A DNA stretch of 64,000 nucleotides from Neelides folsomi (Eukaryota; Arthropoda; Collembola; Neelipleona; Neelidae). Each line of letters begins with the position of its first letter. The stretch's first letter is position 1. The stretch spans positions 62,001 through 126,000 of the forward strand of contig JAQGBZ010000129.1 of assembly GCA_034687125.1 (NCBI GenBank), written 5' to 3'. Position numbers and translations under genes: made by a program. Positions 17,026-42,700 of the stretch are shown here, one piece after another. The notes below the pieces were generated by a model. That model was not told the origin of the DNA and ran no database searches. It was given only the letters and a program-made list of their open reading frames with translations.

Positions 17026-17967
17026 ATGGACTTCAGAAGCAAAAGCCCCGGACTGGGCCGTCTGCTCCCGGGCAACCTCCTCACCCCGCCAGTGACCCCC
17101 ACGGACCTCCAACACCTCCCGGACTTTGTCCCCAACTTCCCGCATCTCCTCATGGCGGCTTCCCTCTACTTGAACCGATTCCCGCCCCTGCTCTACTCCC
17201 TGGAAGACTTGAGGAAGATTGCGCTCCTCAACCCGCCCCAGGACCTCTCCTTCAAACGGTTCCACCACCACCAGGAAGGGCCGCCGATGGCCGGAGCTTC
17301 AGCACCTACAATCCACCCGCCGGCCCCGCCGACGGCCCGGGCATCCCGCCCCAAGAAGCAGTTCATATGCAAGTACTGCAACCGCCACTTTACTAAGAGC
17401 TACAATCTCCTCATCCATGAGAGGACCCATACGGACGAACGGCCCTACTCCTGCGATATATGTGGAAAGGCCTTCCGGAGACAGGACCACCTGAGGGACC
17501 ACAGGTAACCCGCCCTTTTAAACCCTTAACTTCTTAAGTCTCCCTTTTTAAACCCTCATCTCCAGACATCTGAGGATGAAGTCCCTTAAGTGAGACGACG
17601 ATTGTAAGATAAGCTTTTGTCGTGCAGGTACATCCATAGCAAGGAGAAGCCTTTCAAATGCAGCGAGTGCGGCAAGGGCTTCTGCCAGTCGAGGACGTTG
17701 GCCGTTCACAAGATCCTCCACATGGACGAGTCGCCCCACAAGTGTCCGGTGTGCTCACGGGCTTTCAACCAGCGGTCGAACCTCAAGACCCATCTCCTCA
17801 CCCACACTGACCTCAAGCCCTACGAGTGCACAAGCTGCGGGAAGGTGTTCCGGAGGAACTGCGACCTCCGTCGTCATGTCCTCACCCACGACCCCAATTA
17901 CGACGAGTCGGCCGAGACGGGGAGCGAGAAAAAGAAGACCTTCCTCATCAGTGACATCATGAAATAA
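17026..17967 (+). CDS. Odd-skipped family C2H2 zinc-finger repressor, paralogue A (+)
   Basis: Odd, Sob and Bowl proteins are nuclear repressors in segmentation, leg-joint and gut patterning. Two coding exons: 17026-17504 and 17628-17967, joined in phase 2 inside the HR|YIH of finger 2. Five C2H2 fingers follow the family linker [13 protein letters not shown]: two in exon 1 (CKYC..H, CDIC..H) and three in exon 2 (CSEC, CPVC, CTSC). The C-terminus [12 protein letters not shown] fits an eh1-like FxIxxIM Groucho-binding motif, known in Odd. The N-terminal half is Pro/Leu-rich. Start: the frame stays open up to an ATG at 16729, but a perfect donor (GGTGAGTG, near 16740) sits just after it, so I prefer the ATG at 17026 and suspect a 5' UTR intron. 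Poly(A) signal AATAAA at 18134-18139. Exon 2 is almost identical in bases to paralogue B at 32.1-32.5 kb. Whether this is odd, sob or bowl I cannot tell. Confidence 0.9.
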
Positions 17968-20900
17968 AAGCGGCTCCTTTGTTATTTATCTATATAGTCG
18001 CACCCTCAAAGTAGAGCCGCCTTCTGATAGCTCTTTCAACTCGCCGCAGCACCCGCACTTTAACAGATAATTCCGATCAGTTGTTAAGCTCCTCATCGAG
18101 TATGGTCCTGTACATACATATTACTTATATGCAAATAAACTTTCCACAATCATGTATACTCTCACTCGGAGGCATTTCATTTCGCACTTGGCATGGACAT
18201 GGAGTGGGGAATTTAAGTGGATGTAGTTAAGTACATACAGATATGTAGTTAATTGTAGTAAGTGGGGAGAGGGAGTTAGCTCATACATAGGTAGTTATAT
18301 GCTGTGTAGTTATAATGGCAGTTAAGTGTGGGCTCGACGGCCCTGGGCGGGTGCGGGATTTGAGGGCGGGGAGGAAGCCTATCGTCTGCTTCATTAGCAC
18401 TCTTCATGACTAATAAATTATGCATGCAAAGGCTATTGGTGGTTGGCCATAGAGTAGGTCTTGGAATCGTGGGAAAAGGTCAACGTGGGTGGAGATAATT
18501 GATGTGTCATCGCCTGAAGCCCCGTATTAGCATATTTCGTCATGCACTGCTCATTTGCGGATGCGAGGAGTCGAGCAGTGGAAGAAGGGAGGCGTGTGTC
18601 CTGGCTATCTCCTCTAATGGAAAGACGTTGTCGGCGGGGAGATAAGGGCCTCGTGTGAGGTGGGCCCGGACCGGGGAGTTATGGGCCGATGGGGCGATAG
18701 GGGATCTGGGGCGGGGGAAGGAATTCGACGACGGCCGGGAACCGTCCGCCGACCCATCGTCGGGGCCAGAGGTCAAGCAAGAACACGCGGCCAGCCCGTT
18801 TCCCACGATTTAGAAGAGCATGGCCTCTTGATCCCTCTACTTGTATGGGAAACTGCTCGGGGGAGAATTCCAACACATTCTTGAGCACGAGCTCCGTTCT
18901 GTTCGCTCTCTACCTGGTCGGGGAGGAGACGAGCTGCCTGGCCACAATGCCCCGGCCCCATTGTCCGCCGATCCGTTGGCGGGGAGAATTCAGATCACAG
19001 TTGACAGATCTTATAGGCCGCTCCCAAGGCCCAGAGAGCTCCAGACCATAAAGTCACCGAGCCATTGTGTCCACGGGGCAAAAAACGAATCGCTGTCATC
19101 GAGTTTTATTGTGTGGCCTGCCTGGACCACCCCTTAGTTTTTTTAATGCCTCGCACGTTGTCACCCCTTTTTTACCTCCGTCGGCCCTCGCCCCTGCCCA
19201 CTCCTCCCTCCCGCACACACAAGAGGGTATTAATAAGAAACTGATGTGTGTCAATACGCTTGTCCAATTTACAGGTGATGGAATTTGTATACCCCCAACT
19301 ATAAACCCTCCACTCTGCTTAATAACAAATCGGAGAAGAATGCTGAAGAACACTTGTTGACGACGACGCGTGCGGTTTGGAATTCCAGCCAGAGATGCAG
19401 CCGAGAGATTATGCAGGGGGGTCCCTTTTAAACATCTTCCCTTTATTATTACTACGCTCCTTTTTTACTTCTCGCCCAGCCCTTGCAGAATCCTTTTCTC
19501 ACGATCCTTTTCGCGGACTTGCCAACAGTCTCGGGGCGAGAAGTGGGAAGGAGTTAGAACAAGTGGGAAGGAGCTGCGGAAAGTGGCTGAGAAAATATCA
19601 TTTGCTTATTATTTCTGTGGGGTGAGAAAAAAGGCCAATTGGTTCACTTGTTTGTTTTCAGAGATAAGGAGACGGTCGAGGCGCGAGAACATCTTCAAGA
19701 GACCTCACTTTATTTACCCTCCATTTTTCACCCGTCGACCACTCCCTTTGAATGGAATACAAATTTCTCCCTTGTAATTCCCATAATCAATCTCAGATTA
19801 AACATGTCATGACAGCTCCACCACTCACTCCCAATTCCCAATTCCTCCTCCCAGTGAAATCCATCTCGGCTCATTACCATTAACATTACCCTTCCGGGCC
19901 ACATTTCATGATCCAATAACCTCGCCTTTCTCTCCTGTGCCAATCCTCGCTCTCGCCAATCCCCGTTCTCTTCACCAACGGTAAAGATCCCCAAAGAAAC
20001 AATAAACCATCTCGAAGAACAATTTCCCATCGGCCCAAAGACTTCTCCAACTCCTCGTCAAATCCTCTCTCTTTGAATCTCTCCTTCCAATGAGTATAAA
20101 CCATCATGCCTTCACCCTCCCATTTAAGACCGTTGTTTATGTGCAAATGAAAGAGAGATCTTTTTAATCTCGCCATGGACGTTTTGCAAGGTTTGCCCAT
20201 TAAAAGCAGATCCTCATCTTTACGACCCGACAATTTGTTTCTCCTCATCCCCTCATCATGAGGAAAGAGGTTAAAATTTTAATCGTTCCCCGCACTTCAT
20301 AAATACATAATATTATTACATATTTTAAATGAACTCCGGGGAATGGAAGTTGATGTGAAAGGACTGAAAGGATATTAAAAAGGCGCTGAGATCTCTCAAT
20401 CACTCACACCCTCGCTCTCGGAGGTTCGACGGGTGGGTAATCCAGGTTGATTCTATCGCCCCATTATCTCCCGATCCACTCCTGTATAAATAAAGACGAG
20501 GTGATAGAGAAGAAAGGGGCCGCGTGTGCGAGCAGAGAAGCTCGAGATTCCAAGGAGTGTAATTGATCCTCTGCCTGCACCCTCCGCGTTCCGCCGCCGT
20601 TTTCTATTAGACCCGACCTATTAAATTCGAGATGGCTATTGAACCCAAAGCCGCTCTCAGAAATGATGATATTATGAAAGGGAAGCCTTTTGTTTACAAT
20701 CTGCTTTTTTGGAGCACCTCTTTACAGCTTCGACAAGAAACGTTTAAAGCAGTTCCCTATATGAAACATATGAACCACATGATACATTGAAACATTTAAA
20801 ACACCTAGATATTGGACATGTATGTATGTGGATCTGGTGAGTAATGTGATATATATTGTACCATATTGAAGAGTATGAGAGGAATGATAGAACCATGATT

Positions 20901-21430
20901 GTAAATGTATTTATATGGCTTTGAAGGTGATGGGTGAAAATGATGGAAAGTGGACGGAGCGAGTGAGGAATAAACCTGTTGACAACTTTATTGATTGCCT
21001 GAGAGTTATGTGGTTTATTGGGCGTCTTGGGGGGCCATTGATGTTCTTATTACCACATCAATTTCCTCTTTATGATTTATAAATATTTGCCTCAATTTGG
21101 TAAGTGAGGGGTGACAGGAGCCGGTGTGTGCAATTGGTCGTGAGAAGGGCTCTCCACACATCTTTTCAAGAGACCGAGGGGTAAAAAGTGGTTGGGATTA
21201 ATAGAAGGGCCGGCAGCCGAGGGAGGTTCATCCTCCCCGATTTGCTTTATGAGAGATGCAAAGTAAAGGTGGTTATTAACACGTTAAGGGCCACTCCAGC
21301 TCCCTGTCTCACCCCTTCCCTCTCACTCCGCCCCGGAAGAAAAATGTCAAGCTCAGAGAAAGAGAGCCCCTTTTAATCTCACGCCCCGCCTCACACTGTC
21401 ACCCCGAATGAGTGTCAGAGATGTTTGAAC
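17968..21430. other. Non-coding tract between odd-skipped paralogue A and drumstick
   Basis: After the paralogue A poly(A) site no gene is recognised. A GC-rich island spans roughly 18.3-19.2 kb and holds the third copy of GGGGAGATAAGGG (18636-18648). A minus-strand open stretch of 88 codons at 18540-18806 lacks an ATG and follows an in-frame stop, so it is not called. A TATAAATA box near 20484 (+) within a GC-richer tract could mark an unassigned promoter. Given its position in a developmental gene cluster, enhancer content is likely but not shown. Confidence 0.35.
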
Positions 21431-21508
21431 GAGAAAGGTTTTTAATACACACAATCGAGATCAGAATATTTACAACAAAAAAAGAAATCGTCGTAGAGGT
21501 CCGCGGGC

Positions 21509-21857
21509 TCAGTAGAAGGAATTCGTCGGGGAAGAGTTCGGCGAGTGTTGGGACCTGAAATAAAAAACCAAAACATGAGCAACTCTGATCCGGAAGATGT
21601 GGGAAGAATGGGTTGGTATGGATTAATTGGATTAATTGGACAGACCGATGCTGTCGGAGGCCGTCCGACTTCTTGAACTGCTTCCCGCACACCTCGCACA
21701 CGAAGACGTCGATGTGGGTCCGCTCGTGGATCATGAGGTTGTAGGATTTGTTGAATCGTCGCTGGCAGAATTGGCAGAACAGGTCGATCTTCGACTGGTT
21801 CCGGATGATCCGACGGCGATGGAGCCGCTCCGCCTCCGCGTCTATGATCGCGAACAT
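21509..21857 (-). CDS. drm: Drumstick-like two-finger zinc-finger protein
   Basis: Drumstick is a very small odd-skipped family member that binds Lines and so relieves Lines' inhibition of Bowl in hindgut and leg patterning. Two exons, 21646-21857 and 21554-21509 (phase 2), give 85 residues, near the fly protein's length. The start MFAIIDAEAE recalls fly MFAVM. Finger 1 is CQFCQRRFNKSYNLMIHERTH and finger 2 is CEVCGKQFKKSDGLRQHR, after which the protein ends within 16 residues (SQHSPNSSPTNSFY), like fly Drm's short tail. The frame is open upstream but no ATG with family similarity is seen. A poly(A) signal ATTAAA lies near 21440-21445. It sits between two five-finger paralogues, matching the drm-sob-odd grouping in flies. 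Confident. Confidence 0.93.
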
Positions 21858-24800
21858 GGTGAGCAGGTGAGAGATTTGATTGAGACACGAGAGCTCTTCT
21901 CCGAGACTTCTCCGAGAATGAAGATGAGGCGAGATGTTGGGACGTGGGCTCTGTCTTCGCCTCCTCACCACCCCCTTCACTAGTACCTTTGGGGATCATA
22001 GGTCTTTTGGCGAGATGGTCATAGCCGGGTCCTCACACTTCCACGAGGTCTCCCTGAGTTGGTCGGATCATTTCCGACGTGTCGAAGAGAGGGGCTCAAA
22101 CGACACCGATGAGTTTTAATCTCTTGAGCTAATATTTGACTTCCTCCTTTGTCTCTCCGCCTTGAGGACAAACTTCCTGGGGCAAACATCCGAGGAGTGG
22201 TGGACCGGGGTCGGAGGAGATTAAGCTCAATTACATTAGTACATCTGCCGAGGTGTGAATCATTTAATGGAGGGACACCCAGGTTGTTTGTCACCGATCG
22301 GAGGGACGCGGAGTGGCGGGGTGCGCCGCTTCGCCCCCCACTGGAACAAACCTTAAAAATCGATTTTACCTCTCTTTGACTCCCCGCTGACTTCTTTTCT
22401 CCAAGAGAAGAAGAATTTTCACGGCGTAATTTTGAGAGTGATGACAAATGGTTTTTTACCCAAATTGTACCTTACCCAATTTGGGCCCCCGAGCCCCAAA
22501 CATCATCCTTTTATTCAGTAATATGCAGACAGGTATTTCCACAAACGGCGGCGGAACTCACTTACGATTACGGCCCGAGTATGACATTAGAGAAGCCACC
22601 ACCCTTTGACTCCACTTCACCTTGCCGGTAACGAGTAGAGTTAATCGCTTTGGACTCTCAGATTCTCCATTACCTCACTCTTCAAAGGACGGAAATGTCG
22701 TGTTTCCCACTCTTGTTTCAATAACTTTGCCAAACTCAAATCACTCATTGTCAGATGAGTCTCTTACAATACAATGCCTAATAGTAGTAGAGAAAGGATA
22801 TGAGAGGTAATCCACACAGGTAAGGTAGTCAATAAGGTAAGGTAAGATAGTTAATGATAGCAAAGGATCTATATAGGTAAGAAGTACGTAAGAAATGAGT
22901 GGATGTGGGAAGGGTTCGAAGATTCTGTTTGAGCATGAGGAAGTGTGAGAGACTGTGTGCCGGGATGAGGTGGGGATTATGAAGGGCGAACGGAAGTGTG
23001 TTAGTTTTTGAGGGTATTTGAGAAAAAAGTAACTCCTGTGCCCTGCTGAGTCATTTAATTTAAAAAGCAGAGGAAACTGAGATTTACTCCTTTGACTTTC
23101 AGATCTTTTTTCATCATTTTGAATAATTAGGCAGGGTGGGTGTTGGCGGCCTGGAGACATGGGAAGTTGGTTATTGTGTCCTTAACCCCCGCTTTTGCCC
23201 ACTGATGGGCCCATAATGGAATTAAGGAGGCAATTGGGCGGGATGGTTGGAGGCAACTGCAAAAAGGAAGATCAAAGTGAGGAAGGAATTGGCTTCATTC
23301 CCCTCTAACTCTCCCGACCCAAGGACCCGATGAGGAGCAGATGAGGAGGAGATGAGAGAACAAATTGAGTTTAGTGACAAGAGGAGAAGAAAAAGGGTCT
23401 CTCCTGAACTCAACAGGCCCCTGGGTGTCTGCCAAGTGCCCCCAAAACTTAACCTCTCTCTGTATCAAACCGAATAGGAGCTCCATAATTGTATGGCTCT
23501 GCACAGCTTGAGTTAATTGCATGTGGAGAAGAGGGAATTTTCCAGGAAAAATTCCTTCCTTGCTACCTGAGAATATTTTTTGGGATCTCTCGCACTTCTC
23601 CACCTCCCCTTCCCATATCTCCCTTCTCTGAACGTCTTCGCCCATCGCGCCCAAAGACCAAAAACTCAGACCAATCTGTGAGAGATCATCCACAGACCCC
23701 AATATTTTATTCCCAAGGTGAAAATCGTCCATAAATGAAGAGGAGTCTCCGCTGGGCAGAGGGACAAAGTAGCCAGTTCAGGTTCTCACAACTCCTAAAT
23801 TGCCGAGTAAATAAATATTGTGAACTTTTACGATCTGCAACCAGTCAAATCTAATCAAGGAAACGGCCGAGCCGCCAATCTCCATCCTAATTAAACAGAA
23901 CAATTACTCCGCCGCTCTTATCTTTATTATCGCACCCATCACCAGCTTCGCCTTCAATCACACGAAACTCCCATTTACGATGGCCAATTCGCAGGAAGGG
24001 GAGATGATCGCCGGATTAACAACTTCTATTCATTCCACATCATTTCCTTTACACCCTCACTGTTTGAACTGCGAATTCTTGTGAAATGGAAGATGGCCGG
24101 ATGAATTTATTTTATAGGCTTTTAGGCCGCGAAGAACACGGAGGTCGTTAGCCGCCTTTCCAAAATCTGCATTTGTAAATTGGTCTTTCTGGCAGTGAGT
24201 TTTGAGTGACGGGTCTTCATTTTCCCATCAAATGATACCAAGGGTTTTCCTAATTATGAAAATTGGATGACAGACATAATATGGATTCATTTCCCAAGGC
24301 GAGCATATTGAGGCATTCTTTGCTCCCTGGGAATTCACATCCTCCAAATTCCTAAATAACTCCTCATATGAATAACTCCACATAACTCCAGACCATCTCT
24401 GGCCCACTTGGGCAATGAGGAGAAGAAAGAGTAATTAGCGTGAAGCACCCAGGGAATTCGGAGAATGAAAAATGAAAAGAATTGATTTTTGATTTATTAT
24501 TTATCAGCAGAGGCTCGGGCTCGCCAACACCTGACGACTCATCTCGGGAGTAAATAGCTCTTCTCACTCTTTCTCTCCCTTATGGATGGGGTCAAGTGAG
24601 CTTGGAGGAATGTGCTGAGAAATAATTCACTGTTCCGGTACATTCGTTTAGAAAAAATGCTTGGGATTCCAATAAGTTCGAAGACAAGTGTAGTACGAGG
24701 AGATAGGGATCCCTCTCCTAATCTATTCTGCCTCGCACGCATAAATAGTGAGATACCCTTTCTTACGCTCATTACTCCACTCTCGGATGTTTAAACTCCC

Positions 24801-26950
24801 ATTCCCCACATAAATCTCTTTCCATCATCGGGGTCTTCGGCAGGGCATGAAGCTCATGAAAAGGATAAGTACAATACAATACCTGTAGTAAGTCATAAGA
24901 GATGAGTAGTACTACTACGAGGAGTATTCTAATATTACTACGAGTGTGTTGTGGCCGGTCGGAGCGTGGCCGGGGCCGCTGCAGGAATCCTCGATAATAA
25001 ATTTAATTATGCGTCCCCTGGCCTCGTGGGAAGGGAGTAATTAGGGGGCTAATGGGTGTAATGTGTCCAAATGAGGGGAAGGTATGCAGAGGTATTTACG
25101 GCTCCTCCGCACCCGAGTGTCAATTGGGATCATCATCGGAGGAATTATAGGAGACCGACAAGGGCCGGATGGCGGCCGGAGTAATTAAGTTCCGGGGAAA
25201 TGGGATTACCCGAGTAATGGGAATGTTTATGAGAGAGGTCCGAGAGGGAGTTTGGGGGCAAGAAGGGTCCAGTAGCCTCTGCCGCCTCCGCCGCCACCAA
25301 ATCCACTTTCACTCCCTTCCAAATAAATAGGGCTGGCGTGTCCTTGTGGGCCCAGGACCAAGGGGATCATTACTGTGATCAAGGGAGGGACGCGGTCAAA
25401 GGTTGCCTCCGTCTCTCCCCAATTTGAGGTTAACTGTCAAGGCTTAGTCGCGTCTGGAGCCGGGCTCCCACCTCCAACCCAAGCACAACTCAGAGGTGAA
25501 GTCAGGTAAGTCTCCTCCACAATCTCTGCCCCTTTGTCAAGAGGGGTGAAGGCGAGCCGGAGAATTAGGAGATGTAAACATTATGCCCAGCGTATGCCAT
25601 AACTTGTCGACTCGAGAGGAAATCTCGAGTAACTTGAGGACTTTGTCTCCCCCTCTCCTTTCCATGCTAATGGCCAAAGACCAAGAATTTATTGCCGGAT
25701 AATGATTCTCCTTCGCACAAAAGGAGTTCCACATAAATTGCCGCATAAATATTAACCATTGACATCTAATGAATTTACAAGAGATTACCGTCCTCCTATT
25801 CACGAAGAAGCCTTTTCTCTCCCACGACTCCCAATCAACGCCTTGCCAATAGACAAATTCCAATAAGCGCCTTTGCCAAACACCCGCAATCTTTCTTTTT
25901 AGTCTTTGGCCTCCCCAAGCCCTTCCTTCGACCCGTGAGAAACGAATACACGACATTGTGCATTTACTCATTACATTCATTCATGCCAGATTACAGATAT
26001 TGTATTAGAAGGAAACCAGCAACGAATTCAGACTTTGGACGTAGATCCATATTATACATTTATCCATTGGTGAATGTATCATCGATGGGATAGTTTGAAG
26101 GAGAGAGAGAGAGTATGATAACAATAAGTTGCTCGCAGACAGATTGAGATCAGAGACGGGGCTCTGGTCTCGATTCCCATTCAGCACCCTCGCCCCGAAT
26201 CTCTCAACTTCTCTAAAGAGAATTCACAGAGAGAACCTCGACAGAATCTCCACGAATCTCTCAAGAGGCTCAAGAGACGCAAATTGTAAATCATCGGTGA
26301 GAGGGGAAAGAGAAAGACGAGTTTTATTCTCATTAGAAATAAATGGGCACATTAGGCTCCTAATGTGTGTTTACATCAATTGTTCACTAATTTCCCTCCT
26401 CTGAGACTTATGAAACACGACCGTTCTCCTCGCCAAAAGAAACTCCTTCGGAATCCATAGAGGCTAATTAAAAAACATTTATTTGATTTAATTATTATTC
26501 TCCATCTTTCCCCATGCACGGTTTTATTGGAGCTCTTCGAGCCGACACGGCCTATTAGAATACTTTCTACATTCATCTTGACCATATTAAAATTGAATAC
26601 ATGCATAATGTTCGTGTTATTAGCGGTACTCCTTTCTGACTTTTTTTGTTCATTATCCTTCTATCTAATGGAAATTACATGATTGGAGCGCAAGGAGTAT
26701 TTATTGTGATATTGTAACATGCTTATAAAAAATAATGCTTTATAATAGAACTTCAAACTGACACTTTATAAAGGCAAAACAATGTACGAGTATTTAAGTA
26801 CATATTACTACAATAAGAAGTTTATGCTTAATAACGTTCGTTGTTTTTGTTCGGCGATAGGCTTCTGATGTACGTACATGAATGTCTTCAAGTCTGCATT
26901 TAAATCAGAAGAATATAGGCTCATTGGAAAGAGAGAGATTGGTGAAGAGA
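21858..26950. other. Long non-coding tract upstream of drumstick
   Basis: About 5 kb with uneven GC content and open frames up to about 145 codons (for example 22019-22447, 23295-23732 and 25537-25980, all minus). None shows a domain, splice-linked partner or convincing start. Composition is richer in GC than the AT-rich deserts elsewhere in the window. Such a tract beside a developmental regulator is a natural place for enhancers, but I see no defined module. Confidence 0.35.
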
Positions 26951-26958
26951 AAAGAGAG

Positions 26959-27448
26959 TACCGTATTGGTCCGTGATTTGTCCGGTGCCCGAATTATATC
27001 CGGGGGTGGGACCTGAGATTTTAAATTATATCCGGGGTCCAAAATTATACCTGGGTTAATTTTTAAAATGAGAGAAATATTTAACATTTATACGCATTCA
27101 ATTGGTCTTAATTTTTATTTCCATTCAATTAATATGTCACAAAGGTTTTTTCGTGTTGAATTTAAATTAAAAGTGTTTCAATATGCTGAAACAGATATTG
27201 GAAAAGCCACTTGCAAGCATTTTAAAATAGAAGCAAGGTGAGGCTATTATTAATGATAGTAACAGTAGCCATTCTACATCTGAAGATTCAGGTTTTGATG
27301 ATTAAAAGTTAGTTTTGAATGAAAACAAAAATTTCCCAAATGTCATTTCCTTAAATATTTTAAAGATATCCGGTGCCCGATTTATATCCGGGGGTCGGAG
27401 GTAATATTTTTAATTATATCCGGGGACAAAAATCGGACCAATACGGTA
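26959..27448 (+). mobile_element. Internally deleted pogo/Tigger-type DNA transposon
   Basis: The element is bounded by perfect 15-base inverted repeats, TACCGTATTGGTCCG at 26959-26973 and its complement at 27434-27448, with TA at both outer edges as expected for a Tc1/mariner/pogo TA duplication. Subterminal blocks containing CCGGTGCCCGA and TATATCCGGGGGT occur at both ends as direct repeats. Inside, an ATG at 27134 opens about 35 residues with the pogo/Tigger N-terminal helix-turn-helix pattern (RVEFKLKVFQYAE), ended by a stop. A nearby acidic tail ending EDSGFDD then a stop resembles the transposase C-terminus. The catalytic core is absent, so the copy is non-autonomous. Assignment to pogo rests on the HTH pattern and TA ends. 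Confidence 0.75.
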
Positions 27449-28855
27449 ACCATGTCTCATCTTTGCCAGGACTCAATTGAGCATGAGGGAAGGGATCTTC
27501 TTTGTTCCTTCATCACTCCTCTTCAATGTCTAAATAACTCAACACCTTCGCTGCTTAGCATAAAATCCTATTGGGGATTTTAGTCCTCGCCGAAGATCCT
27601 CCATGATCTGTATGGTTTCTCTATGGTAAATAATGGGAGAGAAGGAGTGAAAGAAGAACAAGGAACCCGGAGCACTAAATTACATTCGTTTGGAAGGGGA
27701 TTCACAACAAGTTTTATTCCCAAATCTCCATATCCATTCTCCCACCAACCATGACTCTGACTGGGAGAGTGCGGAGGGAGACATTTGAATAAAAATGGAG
27801 AATTTGGGAAGAGTCAAAAACGACACGCTGGATATTACAAGTTGAGAAATTATGGGAAATTATAGTATTTGGAAGAGAAGGAGGTGTGGTGGAACGACCC
27901 TGTTTTTCCTCTGCATCTCTTTATGTAAATCCTGGGATGAGAGGAGTGCGAAGAGGGATGGCCTTGTTTACTATGAAAATTAAGATTAAATAGGTCAATT
28001 AGCATGGGGTTTAAGGGGCAATTAAGATTAAACCGTATTAATTGAGGCTAATTTTTTTACTCAAGAATCATTTGCAAGGGTGAGATAAAACTTTCCTATG
28101 GTGCTCACACTCACACACTTACATCAAACTCTCATCAAATGTTTGCTTTTACATAGCTGCATAAAAATATAAGTATTTAAACGGCTAAAGATTCTCCTTA
28201 AGTTTCTCCTATGATTAATGTCCTTTAATTGATCTAAATATTAAAATTAAGAGTTGAAGAGCTTTGGAGTTTTCGAGGAACGTCTTTGATGGAAATGAAG
28301 AGATGTTTAAGCAGCGCCGAGTCCGCCTCCTTCCGCCTTCAAACCAAATCATTTGGAGTTGTAATGTTTACAAATTTAACACTCTCGGCTTTCAACAATG
28401 GACAACACTTCAAACTTGCTCGACCCAACTGTTAAGGTTTGCCCTTACTTCTTTCTCAATTATTGGGCGATGTGCGAAGGGAGCCGGTGACTTAATTTAA
28501 TTTTTAGATAGAGACGAGAGAGGGTCGGCGAACAAGGAACAACAACGATGATGACAAGGTTAGAAAAAAATTCCTCTACGCACCAACTCAACCCTTAACA
28601 TTATATAATAAAAAAAGTTATTCGCGCAGTGGACAACTCCTATTATTAACCATATATATTTATAATAATAGATATATAATTGACATATTTAATGGATATA
28701 AATATAATAATATATAAATATATATATATATATATAATATACATTATACCAGATATAATAGATAAATATTAATAGTAAATAGAATAGTTTTAATTATTCT
28801 TAACTATTTTGATCCCACTTGGTAAAACTGAGATCGTCAAAATTTGTCTAATTAG
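27449..28855 (+). other. Region upstream of the OATP coding exons; candidate first exon
   Basis: The first recognised OATP exon starts in phase 1, so an upstream coding exon must exist. One candidate runs from an ATG at about 28289 to a GTTAAG donor near 28431 in the needed phase, but it has no family similarity and is speculative. The stretch 28560-28800 is very AT-rich and includes a TA microsatellite. Confidence 0.2.
28719..28736. repeat. TA dinucleotide microsatellite
   Basis: Pure TA run of nine units inside a wider AT-rich tract (about 28640-28790), in the presumed first intron or 5' flank of the OATP gene. Confidence 0.8.
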
Positions 28856-31800
28856 ATTTATTTCGGATTGGAAAGGATCTCCGGTTCGGGTGGTCAAAGT
28901 CATGTACGCCGAAATGTCTCCAGTTTTTGGCAAATCGGAAAGCCTTTCTCATCATCTTCTCCACGACTTGCATCCTCCAGGGAACCTTTCACACTTATTT
29001 TGTCGCTGTGATCACGACGCTGGAAAAGCTGTTTTCAATACCAAGTAAAACAACGGGGAGTTTGATGGCCGCCACAGAAATTGGACAGGTGGTTATTTCT
29101 CTTTAATCAATTTAACTATTTTTCTCTCTCAAAAACTTTATTATATACATTAATCATCACCATTTTTTATTTTAAGGCTAATAATCTTAATATATAATAT
29201 TCATTATTTTATTTAATTTATTAGGTTGGTTCAGCTCTTTTGCTCCCATACTACGCTGGGCAAGGCCATCGTCCAAGATGGATGGGAGTCGGAGCAGCGT
29301 TGTTTTCTCTTGCAGCCCTCCTCTGTGCTTCTCCACACATCCTCATTCCGCCCACGAATGTGATTGAAAATCAGCAGGATGAATATTGCGTCCCTGGTGC
29401 AAACATAACATGTGAAGATTCACAAACAATCGGAGGACCTCCGTACCTTCTATTTGCCATCCTCTTCTTGAGCTTACTCACGGTGGGACTGGGACAAACT
29501 GCCGTGTACACTCTCGGGATGCCTTACCTCGATGACAATGTGGCATCGCGAGACTCTCCTTTATACTTCTGTAAGTCACAGAGCTTCTCGAAGCTCGCCC
29601 ACAATTTTGACCGATATATTTTCATTTATTAATTATCACAAAAGGAGGATTTGAACAAATAATTGACACCGACTTATATTTTTTCAGACGAGTCTTTTCC
29701 CCCATAATTCAACCATTTTTATTTATTTACACACCCAAAATAACACTAATAATAGGTAATTAACATTATTACTACACACACACTTTGATATGGGCATTAA
29801 CCTACTACTCCTTAATTGCATATTTGGTCTTCTCGTCTATCCCTTTGTAGATGATTTGGATGATTTCTCTTTCAATTTTTATCTCAATTCTTTTTATGTT
29901 TATGGGTAGATGCTTAAAGATAAAAATATTAACTGGAAAAATGGATATTTTACTGTTTTGAAAAATAGTGGAATAATAAATATTTTGTCCTTCATTTCCA
30001 GCAATCACGATAGGAGTGAGAATCCTAGGCCCGGTGACAGGATTCATATTGGGGGCCTTGTGCACGAGGATTTACATTTATCCGACAGAGACTCCGCCAC
30101 CAGATTTGAATCCAAGTAGCAAGGGCTGGTTGGGTGCTTGGTGGCTCGGAATGGTCCTCATCTCCGTCCTTCTTTTCCTCACTTCCATCGTCATTTACGC
30201 TTTCCCAAGGAAGTTGACCAAGAAAGCGACGACGAAGGGGAAGCCAACGCTCAAGAATTTCCCACAAACCTTCAAACGTCTCATAAATAACAAAATTCTT
30301 CTTTTGCGAACTTTCTCCTCCGTCTTCCATCTCTTTCCCATTTCCGGACTTTACACTTTTCTTCCCAAGTACCTTGAGTCTCAGTTTCACATGGCTGCTT
30401 ACGAGAGCAATATGGTGACGGGAATTGCGGGGATTCTTGTGATGGGGATTGGGATTTTCTTTTCGGGGATCCTGATCCGGAAGTATGGGCCTACGGGGAG
30501 AACTGTCGCTGCTTGGGTTGCTGCATGTGCAGCGATATATGCCATTGGCATGTTTGTCCTAATGGGGATCGGATGCGATGATGCGCAACCAGTACTTAAT
30601 AGCACCTATGGGTAAAATATTAATACTATTAATTAAATTAAGTTAAATTAGTAGTTATTTCAGAACCGATATAAAAATTATTTTAAAGCATTTATATATA
30701 TTTTTAATAGATATTTCAATAAAAATTAATTATATTTTGTTTTGAAAATAATAATTTGATTTTAACCCAATTAAATGATTTTTAGGTGCAATACTACTTG
30801 TTCCTGTACAGGTGCAAATTTTTCTCCTGTTTGTGGGAAAAATGAATTTGGGAAAGAAGGAATCAACTTTTATTCTCCTTGTCATGCCGGGTGTCCGAAC
30901 AAATCGGTGAGTGATTTATTTAATTAATAAATGGAATGATTATACTAAATATTATTATTATAATCAAAAATCGATTTTATATTACTAAACATGAGCATGA
31001 TTATGAATTAATAAGTCTGTTTGGAAATGCTAATATTTAATGCCAATAATGCGAAACAAAGTGATGGGATATGCTTCATAATCTCCTCGTGTGTATAAAT
31101 GAATTTCGTTTCATAAATTAAAATGACTTTAATGTTTAGTGTATTAGATTCTAATGTGAATGAATATTTTATTATCTAATCTAATTGAAAGGGCTTTTCA
31201 ATTCATTAAACTCTTTGTTTTTGTATTTATTGATTGATGATTTGATTGAGTTGATCGCATTTGATTTACAAATATCATCTTTGGATCTTTAAAGACTTAT
31301 ATTGAGATTATTAAACAAGATTAAAGCAGCAGATAGCATTAAGTACAACTTACTGAGATGGCACATTTATATAAAAGAGAGACAGAGGTAGTAGAGATAT
31401 TTATGACACATGGATTAACTTAATATTGACATTTGGTAGGAGAGTATGTATAAGGTAGTCTTTGCGCGGAGGAATTATGAAGTCGATGACGAAGACGATT
31501 GTTGATTCATTTTTTCTTTATTTAGTTGAAGGACTGTAGCTGTGCGGATAAGGTCGATCGAGGGTTTTGTGACTTGGACTGTCGGGCCTTTAGTCTTTAT
31601 CTTGCCATCTTCATGGTCATCGTCCTCGTCCACTCGACCTCGGAGGTTGGGTCGATGCTGCTGACCCTCCGGTGTGTGGAGCCAAGAGACAAGGCCATGG
31701 CCTTAGGGTTCATTCAGTTTGCCATCGGCCTGTTTGGGAACGTCCCTTGCTCGGTGATTTATGGAGCCATCGTGGACTCGACGTGCCTTATTTGGGGCGA

Positions 31801-32051
31801 GGATTGTAGTGGGCGTAGGGGCCACTGTGAGCTCTATGACAGCCACCGGTTTCGGACTCTTTTCCACGGTAGGAAAAGTTTTTATTCTTCGCCCCCGCGA
31901 GTTTCCTCCTCCTCACGTTGTTTGGTTGTTTTTTGGTGTTTCAGGCACGACGGGGGCTTTGATGCTCGTCGCCTTCGCCATCGACCTCACGGTCTTCTTC
32001 CACGCCCGCGAAATCAAACTCGAGACTGACACTGAACTCCAGCCGATTTGA
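28856..32051 (+). CDS. Organic anion transporting polypeptide (SLCO/OATP), 5' exon missing
   Basis: OATPs are 12-pass plasma-membrane importers of organic anions, bile acids, prostanoids and steroids; fly Oatp74D is the ecdysone importer. Six exons fit in phase: 28856-29088, 29225-29570, 30002-30611, 30786-30906, 31526-31868 and 31945-32051; 585 residues. Landmarks in order: CTPKCLQFLANRKAF before helix 1, the loop GQGHRPRWMGVG, the superfamily-type VGLGQTAVYTLGMPYLDDN, GWLGAWWLGMVL, a Kazal-like Cys-rich extracellular domain (CSCTGANFSPVCGK ... SPCHAGC) and the helix 10-12 block. The model enters in phase 1, so a short N-terminal exon is unassigned. The last intron is only 76 bases. The stop TGA at 32049-32051 is followed by AATAAA (32071-32076), 37 bases from the stop of the convergent zinc-finger gene. 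Family firm; subfamily and substrate unknown. Confidence 0.92.
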
Positions 32052-32070
32052 ATAGTTCTTGTGCAATATA

Positions 32071-32087
32071 AATAAAAATGCTTTATT
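32071..32087. terminator. Back-to-back poly(A) signals of convergent genes
   Basis: AATAAA on the plus strand (32071-32076) serves the OATP gene, and AATAAA on the minus strand (32087-32082) begins one base after the TGA of odd-skipped paralogue B. Cleavage 10-30 bases downstream of each would make the two messages overlap at their 3' ends, each entering or nearly entering the other's coding sequence. Confidence 0.7.
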
Positions 32088-32088
32088 T

Positions 32089-33180
32089 TCATCTCCTCAT
32101 GATTTCATCAATGGTGAAACCGCGTGGCACGTGTTTGGTCTTTCCACTCTCTTCAAGGCTCACCACATCGACCTCTTCCTCCTCACTGCAAGGGGCCCTT
32201 GAGCTGGCGGCCGCCACTGGGTGTGACGATTCCTCCAAGTCTCCACCGACAGTGTGAGTGAGCGTATGGCGACGGAGGTCGCAGTTCCTCCGGAACACCT
32301 TTCCACAGTTGGTGCATTCGTAGGGCTTGAGGTCAGTATGGGTGAGAAGATGGGTCTTGAGGTTCGACCGCTGGTTGAAAGCCCGTGAGCACACCGGACA
32401 CTTGTGGGGCGACTCGTCCATGTGGAGGATCTTGTGAACGGCCAACGTCCTCGACTGGCAGAAGCCCTTGCCGCACTCGCTGCATTTGAAAGGCTTCTCC
32501 TTGCTATGAATGTACCTGCACGACAAAATTCCTTCTAATTAGGATTTTAAACATTAGATTTTAATATTTTTTAACCTGTATTTAATTATTATCCCAAACT
32601 ATTTTTATACAAGCCAGAAAAATGTTAAGCTAGTGTACATATGGACCATGGTTTGACAACTATTAATTGATCATTATATAAATATGAATAAATGATCTTT
32701 AATTATTTTTTCAATGCATTTTCGGAATTTTCTCATGTTCCCCGGAACTGTTTCCGTTTCGGGGTTTATTAATATGCGGGTGATTTTGGTAATAAAATAC
32801 CTGTGGTCACGTAGGTGGTCCTGTCTGCGGAAGGCCTTTCCGCAGATGTCGCAGGAGTAGGGTCGCTCGTCCGTGTGGGTCCTTTCGTGGATGAGGAGAT
32901 TGTAGCTCTTTGTGAAGTGTCGGTTGCAGAATTTGCAGATGAACTGCTTCTTGGGGCGGGATGCTCGCTGCGTGGTGAGGGCCGTGCGGGATGCGGGGGA
33001 TTGCTGGTAGAAGAAGGGGTTGAAGTAGAAGAGCTTGTCCTTGTCCATGGCTTCCGCCGTCGTGGAGGGGCGGGGAAGGACGGGCTGGAAGGCTGAGCCC
33101 GCCGGAGGGGTCTGGGGGAATACGGGGAAAAGGGCCGGGAAGGGGTGAAGGGCCCCGGGTTGGCTCAGGTCGGTCGGCAT
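32089..33180 (-). CDS. Odd-skipped family C2H2 zinc-finger repressor, paralogue B (-)
   Basis: Second five-finger Odd/Sob/Bowl-type repressor. Exons 32801-33180 and 32089-32515, with the intron in the same phase-2 position inside finger 2 as in paralogue A. The first true in-frame ATG is at 33180 ([16 protein letters not shown]). The N-terminus is Pro-rich with [10 protein letters not shown] before the shared [13 protein letters not shown] linker. Fingers: CKFC, CDIC in exon 1; CSEC, CPVC, CTNC in exon 2. The C-terminus [11 protein letters not shown] is an eh1-like motif close to that of fly Odd/Bowl proteins, which recruits Groucho. The exon 2 finger region is base-identical to paralogue A for 161 positions, although the exon 1 fingers and both protein ends differ. 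The poly(A) signal starts one base after the stop. Its promoter must lie within about 400 bases of the upstream gene's 3' end or use a UTR intron. Confidence 0.92.
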
Positions 33181-33587: not shown

Positions 33588-35044
33588 CTACTTCCCCGAT
33601 GGGTCCTCCTCCCAGACGAAAGGATCCTCGAAGGGCCCTTCGGTCCCCGACAAATCCTCCATTGGCTGCTCTGGATCTTCGATCGGCTCCTCTGGTTCAT
33701 ACTCCTCGGCTGGCTCAGATGGTCCCTCTGAACCTGTCGCTGCCGCTTCCTCAGCAGCCGCTTGCTCCTCCCCCGCTGGCTCCTCAGCTCCTTCCTCAGG
33801 AGCCGACTCGACTTTCCCCACCGACTCCTCTTCATACGCCGCTTCCTCTTCTTCTTCGTGATCGTCATGGGCGTGGTCGTGGTGGTGGTCCTCGCCCTCA
33901 TCATCATGATCGTCTCCAGCTTCGTGGTCATGAAGGTCGTCCACGAAACTATGATGATTATGGTCCTCTTCTTCCCCTAATCCACCTGGAATTTTTTTAA
34001 TTTCATTAGGGAGTCGTATTCTTTAATGTGGTTTTTAAGTATAGGGCTGAACGATACTCATGCCACACACAACACTACACACGTTACACGAAAAGTTTTC
34101 CTTTGTTATTTAACATTTACTCATATGCAATTTTAAAGGAATAAGTTATTATTATATACCATACATATATTATTTTGGTCTGTTGAAACATGCTAATTCT
34201 AATTGAATATGTTATATTTAATCGATGCTTTAAACGTGTTAAAAATGGGTTAAAATAATTGTCAATTGGTCAATTAAAATATAAAGATTATTACCAACAC
34301 CGTGCCATATACTATACTATCTGTATTTAGGCAAAGGTAAATAGGTAGTTAACTACATAATATAAGTAGTACTTGTTTAAAATGATTTAAAAATACTTAA
34401 TTAAAATAATAATGATAGATGACTAAGGTTAGTTAGGTGATTACTTGTGAAGATCATTAAAATTAACATTCGTGATTAAAATTAGTTGTCATTTACATTA
34501 ATATATTGATAAAGTAAATGTTCACACTCAATGGCTTTCATTGTTGTACTTTTCTTTACCTTCTCCCATGAAATGAGCAAATTGAACAAAGACGTTTTCT
34601 GTGTCTTTTGGTGTTTCCGTTGAGATGGAACTTGTGTTGTTCTCTTGAATGAGAACAACTGTGGCGACCCCGCCAAGGATGAGGAGAAGCAGAAAGAAGA
34701 TTATCTTATAAAGTACCCTGGTGTCTTTTACGTCTTCGTCAATACTTGAGTTCGAGTCGTGGGACTCTGGAAATTAATATAATTATCCTTCTAGCTAACT
34801 GCTTCAAGAATCGGTTCAATTAAAATGATTGTTTTCCTCACCCCTTCTTTGAGGGAATTCTTCCTCTTCCTCGAAATCATAGTTGGTTTGCTGCACAAAG
34901 GCGGATCTTTCTTCTTCATACTCTTCCGCTTTGAGACTCTCAATTTGAGCTAATGAAATAAAGAGAATTAAAATGAGTATTAATTATGATATTCAAAATA
35001 CCCTTCTTTTTCTTCTTATTACGTCTTCTATTCACTTCAGACAT
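33588..35044 (-). CDS. Acidic, His/Asp/Glu-rich single-pass membrane protein
   Basis: Four exons join in phase 1 each time: 35002-35044, 34842-34949, 34560-34766 and 33588-33985; 251 residues. It starts MSEVNRRRNKKKKKA, a basic cytosolic head. An acidic patch (FEEEEEF) follows, then SIDEDVKDTRVLYK and one hydrophobic span (IIFFLLLLILGGVATVVLI). The last 130 residues are strongly acidic with a His/Asp run (DDHDDEGEDHHHDHAHDD) and Glu/Pro/Ala repeats. A basic N-terminus and acidic distal part suggest type II topology with the acidic domain in the ER/SR lumen or outside. The layout resembles junctin/triadin or the non-catalytic N-terminus of aspartyl beta-hydroxylase, and calcium binding is a fair guess, but I recognise no diagnostic motif. 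The terminal poly(A) signal is at 33533-33538 (minus strand). Confidence 0.75.
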
Positions 35045-36755: not shown

Positions 36756-39700
36756 TTAGAGGAATGTCTTCTTCGCCTTTGGTCCTATGAATGACAAGAG
36801 AACAGGTAGGAAGATGAGGCCGTGAGCAGCCCCAAACAGGACGATCCCGAGGTACATTTTGAAATAGAACACTCGGAAGATCTGACTCTTCGCAAAGCCG
36901 AGGACGACGATTCCTCCGAACTTCGTGAGTGTGATTCCGCTCAAGACAGAACTTCCCATGTTCACAAGAGCGTCCCGCGCCCTGGCAATCTTCGACTTCT
37001 CTTTGGACACCGTGAAGGCGTGCACGATGTGGGTGTTGAATTCCACAGCGATACCAACAGCCTGGAAATTAATTAAACATTAATCAACAATAATTCAACA
37101 TTTATCTAATAAATTCAATTCAATTAAAGTTTCATTTTAAAATAGGAATAGAAGACGTGGACTTACCATGACGAGATTTACAAGACTCACAGCGTTGAGG
37201 GAAATGTTCCAGAAGTACATCAGGCCTCCCAAATCAACAACAATCATGAGAATTGTTCCAAGAACAATAATACTTGAGTGAATGTCGAAACCCGTCAGGA
37301 GGAACGTCACAACAAAAATGGCAGCGAAACTAATCGCCATTGATCTCAATGTGTCTTCCCACATTGTCAGGTACTGTTCATAAAATACATAGAAGATACT
37401 ATAAGGGTAAACTTCATGGTGCGAATCGGTTCCGTCTGAAAATAATAAAGCATCATTTTATTACAAGTTCATCGTTAATAATTAATTTCACTTCGCCCAG
37501 TTATTGGAAGTTATGAAGGTCAGAATTGAATACATATACAGAATGCATGCGTGTATTAAAAGTTCTTAACCAAACACCCAAATTAATTAAAATCAATATT
37601 AATTAAAGGAACTTACTATTTAGCTCGTCAGTAATTTCCTGTGAAAGTTTTCGGGCTTCTCTCATGGCCTCGGTGTAATCTTGACTCGATTTCAATATCG
37701 TATGATAGGTCATGAAATAACTCGAAGTCGCTTTACTAAATCCAGTTGTTTTGTTCGTCTCTGTCCTTACACCTTGTCCGTAAGCTGCATGACCTCCCTT
37801 TGGACATGTCTCCGTCGGATTATCCCTCAAGAACCATGTCAAATATTTCTCAAAGTCATTTGGAGTAAGTCGTTCGTCGTCAAGTTCAATACGGCACTTC
37901 TGGCAGAGGTTGCTAAAAGCATACATTTCAAATTTATTAATAATAAATTCAGTTATTTTCCATTGCATAAGATCACGCAAGAATAAGTAAATATTAAATG
38001 ATCATATTATGAGCAATATTTATTATTAAAACTGCTTACGTGTTTTCTACATGGTTCGGACAGAAATCATGTGTAGTGACGTTATATCTACAACATTCCT
38101 CATTACCAGCCCAATCAATGAAATCATCAATCCATGAGGAAGTGGGCTTGGCAATGTAAGTCCTATTAGAGATCCGACTTGCTGAGAAGATTCTTGACAC
38201 CATGGAGTTTGCATTCTCCCCCGCTCGCACCCGGTCCTGACTCGAATAATCTTCATAGTCATATCCGGTGTTTTTAATGACGAAGTAAACCGGAGGGCCC
38301 ACGGACAGATAGTTGAACATTGCTCTGCATATCATAAATATTCATTTTAAAATTTGAATTACAAAGTGAAGAAAGTTATGGCCAACATCTCCAAACCATT
38401 GCCATAAACAAGGAAAACCAAATATGGACCTGAAGTAGGTGAGGACGTAGGAATCTTCTGGCATGGAGAGTTCTTGGTCAAGGCCGACATCAATCCTCGG
38501 CAGCACAGCAAAGGAAACACAGAACCATCCAAAGAAAACAATAAGAGTAATGATCCGCACAGGGTACTTGAGAAGGAACGGAGCATAAAGGCTCTTGAAC
38601 ATCTTGTAAAGAAGCCCTTCGCTCTGCTTCACTGCCTTTTTCTTTCCCTTAATGCTAAAAAGAATATAAGCAAATTGTTAATTTCACTCATTTTCTCTTT
38701 CATAACTCTTATTTACATCTCATATAACACAAATCTCGTAAAGCTCATAACTCATCATTTATGTGATAATCTCTATGTCTTGCTCACCAGCAAAGAATGT
38801 CAAACCGCGATTCTTCTTGTCTTGCTGTATCAATAGAAAGAAGTGCCACGAAACATGTAATTTGAAGAACAAAGTCGAAAAGAAGGGCCATTCCAGCATA
38901 GAAACTGAATGCTCGAACTGCAGGCATATCACTCAAACCGCCTATTTAATACAAAACCATCAATCATTGAGTCTTGTTTAATTTATTTAATTAACACATT
39001 GTGCACGTTGCACTCATTCTTGAATTGGTCCACTTACCAAGGAAAAAACACGTGGCATCAGTGATGGAACTCAAAAGCATGGGTGGGGCAACTTCTCCAA
39101 TCACACGCCCAATGTGCTCACTATGACTTTCTTTGGGAATCTTCGGCGTTCGTTGGTAAGTTTGCACCATGATAAAAATGTTATCAACACCGACGGCCAA
39201 AACAAGGAAAGGAATAACTTCAATAATAATAAGTGTAGCGGGAACACCAAGGAATCCAAAGAGACCCACTGATGCAGCTACAGACCCCAATACAATCATG
39301 ACTCCTCCAAGTCCAAGAGTCACTTTGCTGTCAATCTATATAAAAGTAAACAACGATTAAAAAGATTCCATCACAAAGGATTAGCTTTATTAAGTTTATT
39401 AGTCATGGTCATAAATCTCAAGAGAGTAAGTAATGGAGATAACATACCAAAAGTCGAGAAAATGAGTTAGCATGACCAAGAGCGACGGAAATGTAGAGCA
39501 ACATGATCACGTAGGAAATGACCACAGTCGAAATTTCTCCTTCTGATTCTCGAGCCAATTCATCCTCAATGGATCGTTCAGAACTGAAGGCGACCTTCAT
39601 AAAGCTCGGCTTCTTCGTCGCTACCCAATCTTGCATAAAGGCAATATAGGCCTTTTCCCATTCCATGGCCATCTGAGTGTCTTCCTTATGGTAATGATTA

Positions 39701-42700
39701 CTCACTACGAAAGTGATGATTGCAGTCGTTGCATCTTGGTAATTCGGATCTTGTCCGATCGATTCCCCTGGACGGAGGAATCCTCCCAAAACCACAGAAG
39801 GATCAATCGGTCCACCATATTCTCCAAGACAGGAAAGATGAAGGGCAGTGGAATCTTTAGGACTTGCTGGATTTCGACTGCAGAATTTAAAATGATCCAA
39901 GTAATTGTCGACAAGTCCTGATTCATCATCTCGTGTGTGGTTGAGATGCAATGTGTCTTTGTCTCCCTGCCAATAGCCGACAACGCTGAAGATGGTGCAG
40001 TTTGTATTGTCGGGGTCAAGGGGCTTGAAGCAAATATCAGCAAGAGTCTCGTTGTGAGCACCATTGATCTGTAAAGATTTCATAATTTATTCTTCATTCA
40101 TTCCCTTTGCATTGCACAAACATTGCACCAAGACTTTCAAACACAATTTTGGTAATTGCACATCAGAATGAAATTCAAAAGTTACAACTCTTCCATTGTC
40201 ATTCACTATGCCATGTGAATGTAATGAAGCCATACAGATGAGTTTCAAATTATTAAAGTACGTGTAAAATCATAATGAAACTCTCATAACAATAAAGAAA
40301 AATGGGAGAGAGAACTCCCCTGTTGATCAAACGTCTTAAAGGAGGGATAAAAAGTTGTTAGCTCACATTTTTTATTTGTTCTTGTAGGTCTATCACGGCT
40401 TCAAGGAACTCCATGTTGAAAATAGGACCAAAAATTTCAATCCCTGATCCATCTGGAGTTGTGTGGTTTACTTGCTTAAGACCTTCAGCCGTAATGATAA
40501 TTTGCTCCGTTCGATAAAAGGGCTCGAAGTTTCGGTCAAAATGATCCTTTTCCACTCGAGATCGAGAATTGGGGGCCGCCCAGAGTTCCACAGGGTTGGT
40601 TGTAATGTCCAAATAAAAAATTCCAGTCGACAAGGCGCAAACCATAATGATTCCAGGTACGAGACACGCGAACGGATGACGAGCACACTCTGTTCAATTA
40701 TTCATTCATATTGAGCTCATTAAGAAAAAAATAGTCAGCCTGACTCATCAAAGTATTTTAATCCATTGTTACAATGCAAATATCACATCAAGGGCTATCA
40801 AGTTCCCATAAATGCGTATAAATATGACCATTTCCTTCTCATTCAATTATCCAATTATTATAGGAGGTTCCCTCATGTAAATAATGTAAATAATATGCAT
40901 GCATTTTATTTTAATAAGGTTATATAAAAAGCTAATGAAGTTACTTTCTGCAATTCCACCAAAAAAGGCAGAAATGGCGTGTTCAAAGCCAGCCCCAATT
41001 CGCTGCAAACAAGTGACCTCTTCATCAGTTTCATCTGATTTGCCTGTAATCAAACAAATCATGACCCATTAATGATATACCCTTTGACCTTCCAGGTGTC
41101 AAGAACTCAAATTAAATTATATTAAAGAGCGAGTAATAATCAAATCAAGTGCGTAATGGCGTAAACCAAATTGACCGTCCAGTTGGTCAGATGAGTAAAA
41201 TGTAATATACTGTGCAAACACAAAGAACAACGTGTGTTTTGATTAAGTGAAATACACAAAGTTGTAATTTACAGTTTTCGAGTAGGTCTTCTTCTTCCCG
41301 AGCCGGCCGAGCAACTTTTCCTTTAAGCCGCGTCACAGAATCAATTACATCGTCAATCGTCAATTTGTCATTTATTTTACTCTTTTGCTTTACAAGTGGT
41401 TTTAACTTTTAAGTAATTTTTGTCATTATATGAAAATATGAGCCTTTAGCTTACCGTCCACTTTGAGGAAGGCCATAAAGAGGATGAGAAGGGTGCCGAG
41501 GACGAAGGCGATCCCAGACACAACGAACATCCCTTCGACTCCAAAGATCTTCCATCCTTCATCGAGTGGAGGAAGAGGAGGAGCAGCAGGGCAACTCTCA
41601 GTACAATCGACACAACTGCACACCTTGCTCGAACCCTACCAAAATCATTTTATGATATTTACCATACAAATGGAAAAACCATCAAAATGTTTAAGATCCA
41701 AATGTTTTAGATCCAAAGATTCATAACAAAGATCAAGTTTTTAAGGAATAATTGCTATGTGCATCCTTTTTATCGACACTTGATTACCCTCAAAACCCTG
41801 CTCCTAAAATTCACGTCCTCCTCATGTTCAACTTGAGCTCATTTCATCTTTAACTTAAAGCATTTAAAGGAAGGGAGGAAAAAGAGAATTACGGCTAGTA
41901 AAAACTCCTTTGTTTACATTTGGGACCTGATGAGAGATCTTAACAAGGGCCTTTTCTCCTACACCATCTTGAAGAATAAACAGAGGAGACCAGAATGTAT
42001 AAAATGTGTATATGTGTATAAAATGCACACCCCACCCGCTAAACATTCTTCTCTAATTTACCCAGAATAAAGAATGAATGGTTCGCTAAAATAGAAAATT
42101 GCTAACAATAAAATTAAACACCAGATGGTCATGTCGAGTTAAAATGATGATTATGGGGCGGTAAATAGCTTCAATGGCTCCTAGGCTCACGAGTTGAAGT
42201 TGAAGGTTGCAAATTCAAATGAATTATGCAAGTTAATTTTGGGAGCAAAAAAGAGTGTGAAGAAATGCACATTTTGAAAGGATGGTGATATTACGACTTT
42301 GGTCATTTTGAATAAATAAAAGATTGAAAAAAGATGAGACGATGAGGAGTGGGAATAATTAAATTAATTAAAGAGAAATGTGTTTGTTTTAATTCTTACC
42401 GGCAATGCTACAGAGCAGTGGAAGGTTGTGTGGTTAAATGGGATAATGCTAGTTTCACGTTCTCCCAAAGATTCACCAGCTTCGTTGAAGAAAACCGCAT
42501 TGTGGGTGGCTATGTGATCGTTGATAAACCCGCTCCCATTCGAGTACCGATATCTGATGTCAAAGGGAGAGAATCCGTTCGACACGCTGCCCATGTAATC
42601 GAACCACTTCGTCGCTGTGCACCTGTAAGCTCCCCAAGGACCGCAGAGGAAATCCATTGCAGGTCCATTGGTGGAACTCATAATCACATTTTTACAAGAG

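Follow-up and report, generated by a model that had tools for sequence, protein, structure and literature searches.

The window analyzed here, 64,000 nucleotides of the collembolan Neelides folsomi (positions 62,001 to 126,000 of the forward strand of contig JAQGBZ010000129.1, assembly GCA_034687125.1), contains two C2H2 zinc finger genes, paralogues A and B, that share a segment of their second exons identical at every base. Each gene encodes five fingers, as counted by eye from the translations, and is split by a single phase-2 intron, which interrupts finger 2 at the same point in both; with inferred start codons, the models yield proteins of 272 (A) and 268 (B) residues. The two genes are convergently transcribed and lie about 14.5 kilobases (kb) apart, without being adjacent. 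Judging from their sequences, they are best explained as two members of the odd-skipped family in a clustered locus of the odd/sob/drm type. The finger region matches the structure of odd-skipped-related 2 (PDB 2ee8; query residues 2-90, E 1.9e-52), which ranks fourth among 245 matches, the first three being chains of the poly-finger protein ZNF568, whose matches span more fingers. The C-termini, ...FLISDIMK in A and ...FTIDEIMRR in B, look alike by eye and, judged likewise by eye against an EH1 consensus, are EH1-like; binding of Groucho would be putative. Between A and B sits a two-finger gene, a third family member that we call drumstick-like because of its two fingers and its location, the name not being based on a comparison with drm itself. 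Published work on related loci reports an EH1-like motif at the C-terminus of Drosophila odd and bowl (PMC1310626) and a cluster of drm, sob and odd in fly, beetle and butterfly (PMC4704060); Daphnia has four odd-family genes, with about 25 kb between two that share a scaffold (PMC2889900). Outside the fingers, A and B hardly align: a blastp alignment extends only loosely, and with gaps, into the N-terminal region, and the C-terminal tails, apart from the last residues, yield none. The protein ends had been called unrelated in a preliminary description of the locus, which fits the tails but overlooks the EH1-like endings common to both.

The same description had reported 161 identical bases in exon 2, silent sites included, followed past one mismatch by 19 more, 13 of them intronic, and all of this is exact (Table 1). 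The mismatch, at 17634, is silent (ATC/ATT), and exon 2 begins at 17628 in A and at 32515 in B, hence the 13 intronic bases in the extension. The intron identity ends after these 13 bases upstream of exon 2, with no alignment beyond them. What has to be corrected is the notion that the identity covers exon 2. It stops within the exon, and from 17796 onward there are 12 base differences in the last 32 aligned finger codons. The edges of the tract lie near the intron border, where homology itself stops, on one side, and within finger 4 on the other. A comparison of the window with itself (blastn, E 1e-3) returned three matches only: the block that contains the tract (275 bases, 95.3% identity), a block in exon 1 of the two genes (194 bases, 86.6%), and an unrelated 65-base direct repeat. 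The tract blocks form inverted arms of 275 bases, 95% alike and 14.4 kb apart.

Table 1. Exons of the two odd-skipped-family genes, their identical segments, and the genes between them (positions in the window)
Feature	Positions	Strand	Remarks
Paralogue A exon 1, coding part (fingers 1 and 2)	17026-17504	+	Spliced coding sequence of 819 nucleotides without internal stops; start codon inferred
Paralogue A exon 2 (end of finger 2, fingers 3-5, C-terminal EH1-like FLISDIM)	17628-17967	+	Phase-2 intron, GT..AG; Pfam zf-C2H2, three stretches
Paralogue B exon 1, coding part (fingers 1 and 2)	32801-33180	-	Spliced coding sequence of 807 nucleotides without internal stops; start codon inferred
Paralogue B exon 2 (end of finger 2, fingers 3-5, C-terminal EH1-like FTIDEIM)	32089-32515	-	Spliced model; Pfam zf-C2H2, three stretches
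Identical tract in A (whole finger 3, most of finger 4)	17635-17795	+	161/161 bases identical to reversed 32348-32508
Identical tract in B	32348-32508	-	161/161 match to A; within inverted-repeat arm I1
Extension of the tract in A, 19 bases, 13 of them intronic (splice acceptor)	17615-17633	+	Identical to reversed 32510-32528
Extension of the tract in B, 19 bases, 13 of them intronic	32510-32528	-	Identical to 17615-17633
Drumstick-like two-finger gene, third family member	21509-21857 (coding 21857-21646 and 21554-21509)	-	tblastn match and inferred spliced model
OATP-type transporter gene	28900-32030	+	Pfam OATP, 1.2e-52 for 30016-30615; limits estimated by eye

The fingers of A and B align without gaps over 142 codons, of which 138 are degenerate codons that encode the same residue in both genes, and 31 of the 426 aligned bases differ. 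These differences are unevenly distributed. In the exon 1 fingers, 18 of 162 bases differ, with silent differences in 16 of the 53 degenerate codons and a single replacement, so that the 18 differences noted previously, and their almost exclusively silent character, stand, although the base of 137 then given falls slightly short of the 162 aligned codon bases. At the very start of exon 2, one of three degenerate codons differs silently; in the tract, none of 52 does; and after it, in 32 codons, 12 of 96 bases differ, accounting for 8 silent differences in 30 degenerate codons and two replacements. The comparison of synonymous divergence (dS, Nei-Gojobori) along the two genes, which the preliminary description had proposed, gives 0.80 for exon 1, 0 for the tract and 0.58 for the part behind it, with nonsynonymous divergence (dN) of 0.016 before the tract and 0.044 after it. 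The contrast between 0 of 52 degenerate codons differing in the tract and 25 of 86 in the flanking fingers gives 1.8e-6 in Fisher's test, with boundaries picked after seeing the data. When the 25 silent differences are shuffled along the alignment, 52 or more codons in a row stay unchanged in 9 of 200,000 trials, and shuffling of nucleotides in the 275-base block produces a 161-base run in 15 of 200,000.

Fingers are constrained as proteins and the codons of the tract are rich in G+C at third positions (GC3 of 0.85, compared to 0.72-0.84 in the flanking parts), which might suggest that chance, combined with biased codon use in a slowly changing region, produced the island. We consider this explanation hardly credible. 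In addition to the rarity of such a run among the shuffles, codon usage in the 434 codons of A and B that lie beyond the tract, flanking fingers included, predicts 26.1 identical codons of the 52 at saturation, where all 52 are observed, a result with a probability of about 10^-17.5, or about 10^-22.4 when the usage is taken from 738 codons of five other presumed exons in the window. Nor is the amino acid make-up of the tract the cause, given that the expected share of matches is about equal in exon 1 (27.5 of 53, with A and B usage) and in the tract.

Another conceivable explanation is that selection on the nucleotides themselves, whether through splicing enhancers, RNA structure or an overlapping element, froze the tract since the duplication. 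The extension of the identity to the acceptor and the start of the exon, together with the strong amino acid constraint reflected in the low dN values, is compatible with such selection. However, the RNA of exon 2 up to the end of the tract folds no better than shuffled sequences (z -0.32; 70 of 200 shuffles at least as stable), no Rfam family reached its gathering score in the window, and selection would have had to freeze all 52 degenerate codons while 8 of the 30 neighboring ones in that exon changed. We therefore regard nucleotide selection as very improbable. With respect to the acceptor, three copies of the word GTCGTGCAG are present in the window, where 0.10 would be expected; no finger exon follows the third copy (1108-1116, minus strand) in any frame, and we dismissed it as chance.

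An artifact deserves somewhat more attention, namely, that assembly or polishing homogenized two similar exons whose real copies are not quite identical, differing at a few bases. In length the tract is comparable to a short read, and the flanking fingers, at about 87-89% identity (18/162 and 12/96 bases differing), are similar enough for reads to cross-map. Against such homogenization, differences are retained one base past each end of the tract (17634 and 17796), with more following soon on the right, the 13 intronic bases match as well, the exon 1 fingers, which are almost as similar, were not homogenized, and the window contains no N. None of these points is decisive, but jointly they make an artifact, in our estimate, unlikely.

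The arrangement of the two copies brings up one more possibility, that the identity arose by rearrangement rather than by copying, either through recombination between the inverted exons or through insertion of a piece of exon. Inverted arms of this length and similarity could indeed recombine, inverting the drumstick-like and OATP-type genes between them. Inversion, however, swaps the flanks, and identity would still require repair of heteroduplex, that is, conversion; an inserted piece of exon, in turn, would need to land exactly where the homologous segment had been and preserve the reading frame. On this reasoning, a rearrangement without copying appears highly improbable.

Thus, we are confronted with an island of silent identity that has sharp edges and runs over into the intron. 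A recent ectopic gene conversion between A and B is, on this sequence evidence, very probably its best explanation, favored because a sharply bounded segment with dS of 0 lies between flanking fingers with dS of 0.6-0.8, and preferred because chance, codon bias and RNA structure, all of which were tested, do not account for it. We infer the conversion event as well as its template and route. In the proposed scenario, non-reciprocal copying would have replaced about 160-180 bases of one gene with the sequence of the other, the copied segment comprising finger 3, most of finger 4 and the splice acceptor. The route likely was a double-strand break in one of the second exons that was repaired with the inverted paralogue as the template, a fold-back between the inverted copies being a possible path of repair. 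Gene conversion had already been proposed in the preliminary description, and that proposal is borne out in part: the dS island and the intronic overrun speak for it, whereas the tract ends inside the exon and the protein ends share a motif. The earlier suggestion that the inverted arrangement 14.5 kb apart suits conversion likewise fits, but the arrangement is not evidence in itself.

Several observations weigh against conversion. It is read from one window alone, and concerted change is not directly seen. The tract belongs to a part of the protein that is strongly conserved, and its nucleotides could conceivably be constrained; the splice-acceptor consensus accounts for part of the 13 intronic bases; and exon 2 taken alone (84 codons, 9 differences) is less extreme, with 155 of 200,000 shuffles of its silent differences reaching the 52-codon run. 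At least two other genes, the drumstick-like one and the OATP-type transporter, lie between A and B, so that the pair is not a simple adjacent palindrome. Furthermore, codon usage names no donor. The likelihood under the usage of each gene favors A by 5.5 log units, a value slightly higher than any that held-out blocks of A gave (-4.9 to 5.2), but held-out blocks of B also favor A on average (by 2.8, and up to 10.3), which voids the test, and it was dropped as uninformative. A scan for relatives recovered two loci from a genome contig collection, with 27 candidate stretches, both of them weak prokaryote matches (29% and 48% identity) that were not used, and none from a viral contig collection, with nine; neither collection supplied arthropod sequences.

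The flanking fingers have a history of their own. Their codons are identical at 61 of 86 positions, compared to 44.1 expected at saturation under A and B usage (P 6e-5); under the usage of the other exons, 33.7 are expected, and 61 was reached, to the digits printed, in none of 100,000 simulations. Because they are closer at silent sites than codon bias alone gives, it appears likely from the sequences that the whole finger region underwent older, partly eroded conversions or else that the duplication is fairly young. Either a young duplication with fast-changing ends or an earlier conversion of the fingers would fit, and the present data do not separate the two. A bolder scenario, which we advance tentatively and consider doubtful, is one of repeated homogenization of the finger domain: a fresh tract in exon 2 would overlie older, eroded ones across the five fingers, the N- and C-terminal regions would diverge freely, and two repressors would keep one DNA-binding specificity by conversion, with arms that could also flip the drumstick-like gene.

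The neighborhood of the two genes contains other features. The drumstick-like model encodes 85 amino acids and has its intron at the phase-2 site common to A and B; the H-x3-H of its second finger is completed by the splice, and its donor, GTCTGT, is weak. The 3' end of the OATP-type gene is close to that of B. Just upstream of B, an open frame (33588-33944, minus strand) encodes a very acidic protein end rich in His, Asp and Glu, with no Pfam match. At 26959-27448 lies an element of about 490 base pairs that resembles a non-autonomous DNA transposon: its terminal inverted repeats measure 25 base pairs (88% complementary), it has what appears to be a TA at either end, and two direct repeats of 65 base pairs lie close to the ends. 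Farther away, the window contains a piece of an NPC1-like gene (39418-40083, minus strand; Pfam NPC1_MLD, E 8e-53) and a glypican-like exon (57752-58108, minus strand; Pfam, E 1.6e-7).

As a single case in one genome, the pair would be a modest, clean example of a known process. Conversion limited to the DNA-binding domain can nonetheless mislead the gene trees of developmental paralogues. If it is recurrent, recombination, and not selection alone, can keep paralogous regulators alike in DNA recognition, and if repeated homogenization proves true, odd and sob would be the zinc finger counterpart of engrailed and invected. The latter pair is said, by the title of a 2006 study by Peel and colleagues, to have been studied across hexapods, whereas A and B are known from one window.

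Engrailed and invected are ancient tandem, tail-to-tail paralogues whose orientation is said to enable ongoing gene conversion (PMC6444547); A and B resemble this arthropod case in being convergent, and differ from it in that engrailed and invected are homeobox genes. Conversion could complicate the orthology of odd, sob and bowl, as has been said for that pair (PMC6444547). The locus also resembles the drm-sob-odd cluster of insects in combining a drm-type gene with genes of five fingers and two exons, as described for Bombyx sob (PMC4704060). The available part of that source makes no mention of gene conversion in the cluster, nor did a word count turn up the term, which is also absent from the main text on the Daphnia odd-family genes (PMC2889900), and the available part of PMC3058060 contains nothing that bears on conversion of odd-skipped genes. 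By title and the start of the abstract, a partial literature collection yielded no case in the odd-skipped family, and among the papers of that collection that were matched by word count, 'odd-skipped' and 'gene conversion' occur together only in one that, to go by its title, deals with bone genes and how flight originated in birds. The closest match found is Dlxa and Dlxb of the annelid Capitella teleta, in which a portion of the homeobox, together with the intron next to it, is 100% identical at the nucleotide level, an identity attributed to gene conversion (PMC3199776). Those genes, too, are linked, convergent transcription factor paralogues with divergent proteins and silent-site identity in a part of the DNA-binding domain and in the intron, but there the domain is a homeobox and the identity lies 5' of the intron, whereas A and B encode C2H2 fingers, are identical 3' of the intron and have at least two genes between the copies. 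With Dlxa/Dlxb and engrailed/invected on record and no odd-skipped case in the literature searched, gene conversion of such pairs is known, and its occurrence in a pair of odd-family genes appears to be new.

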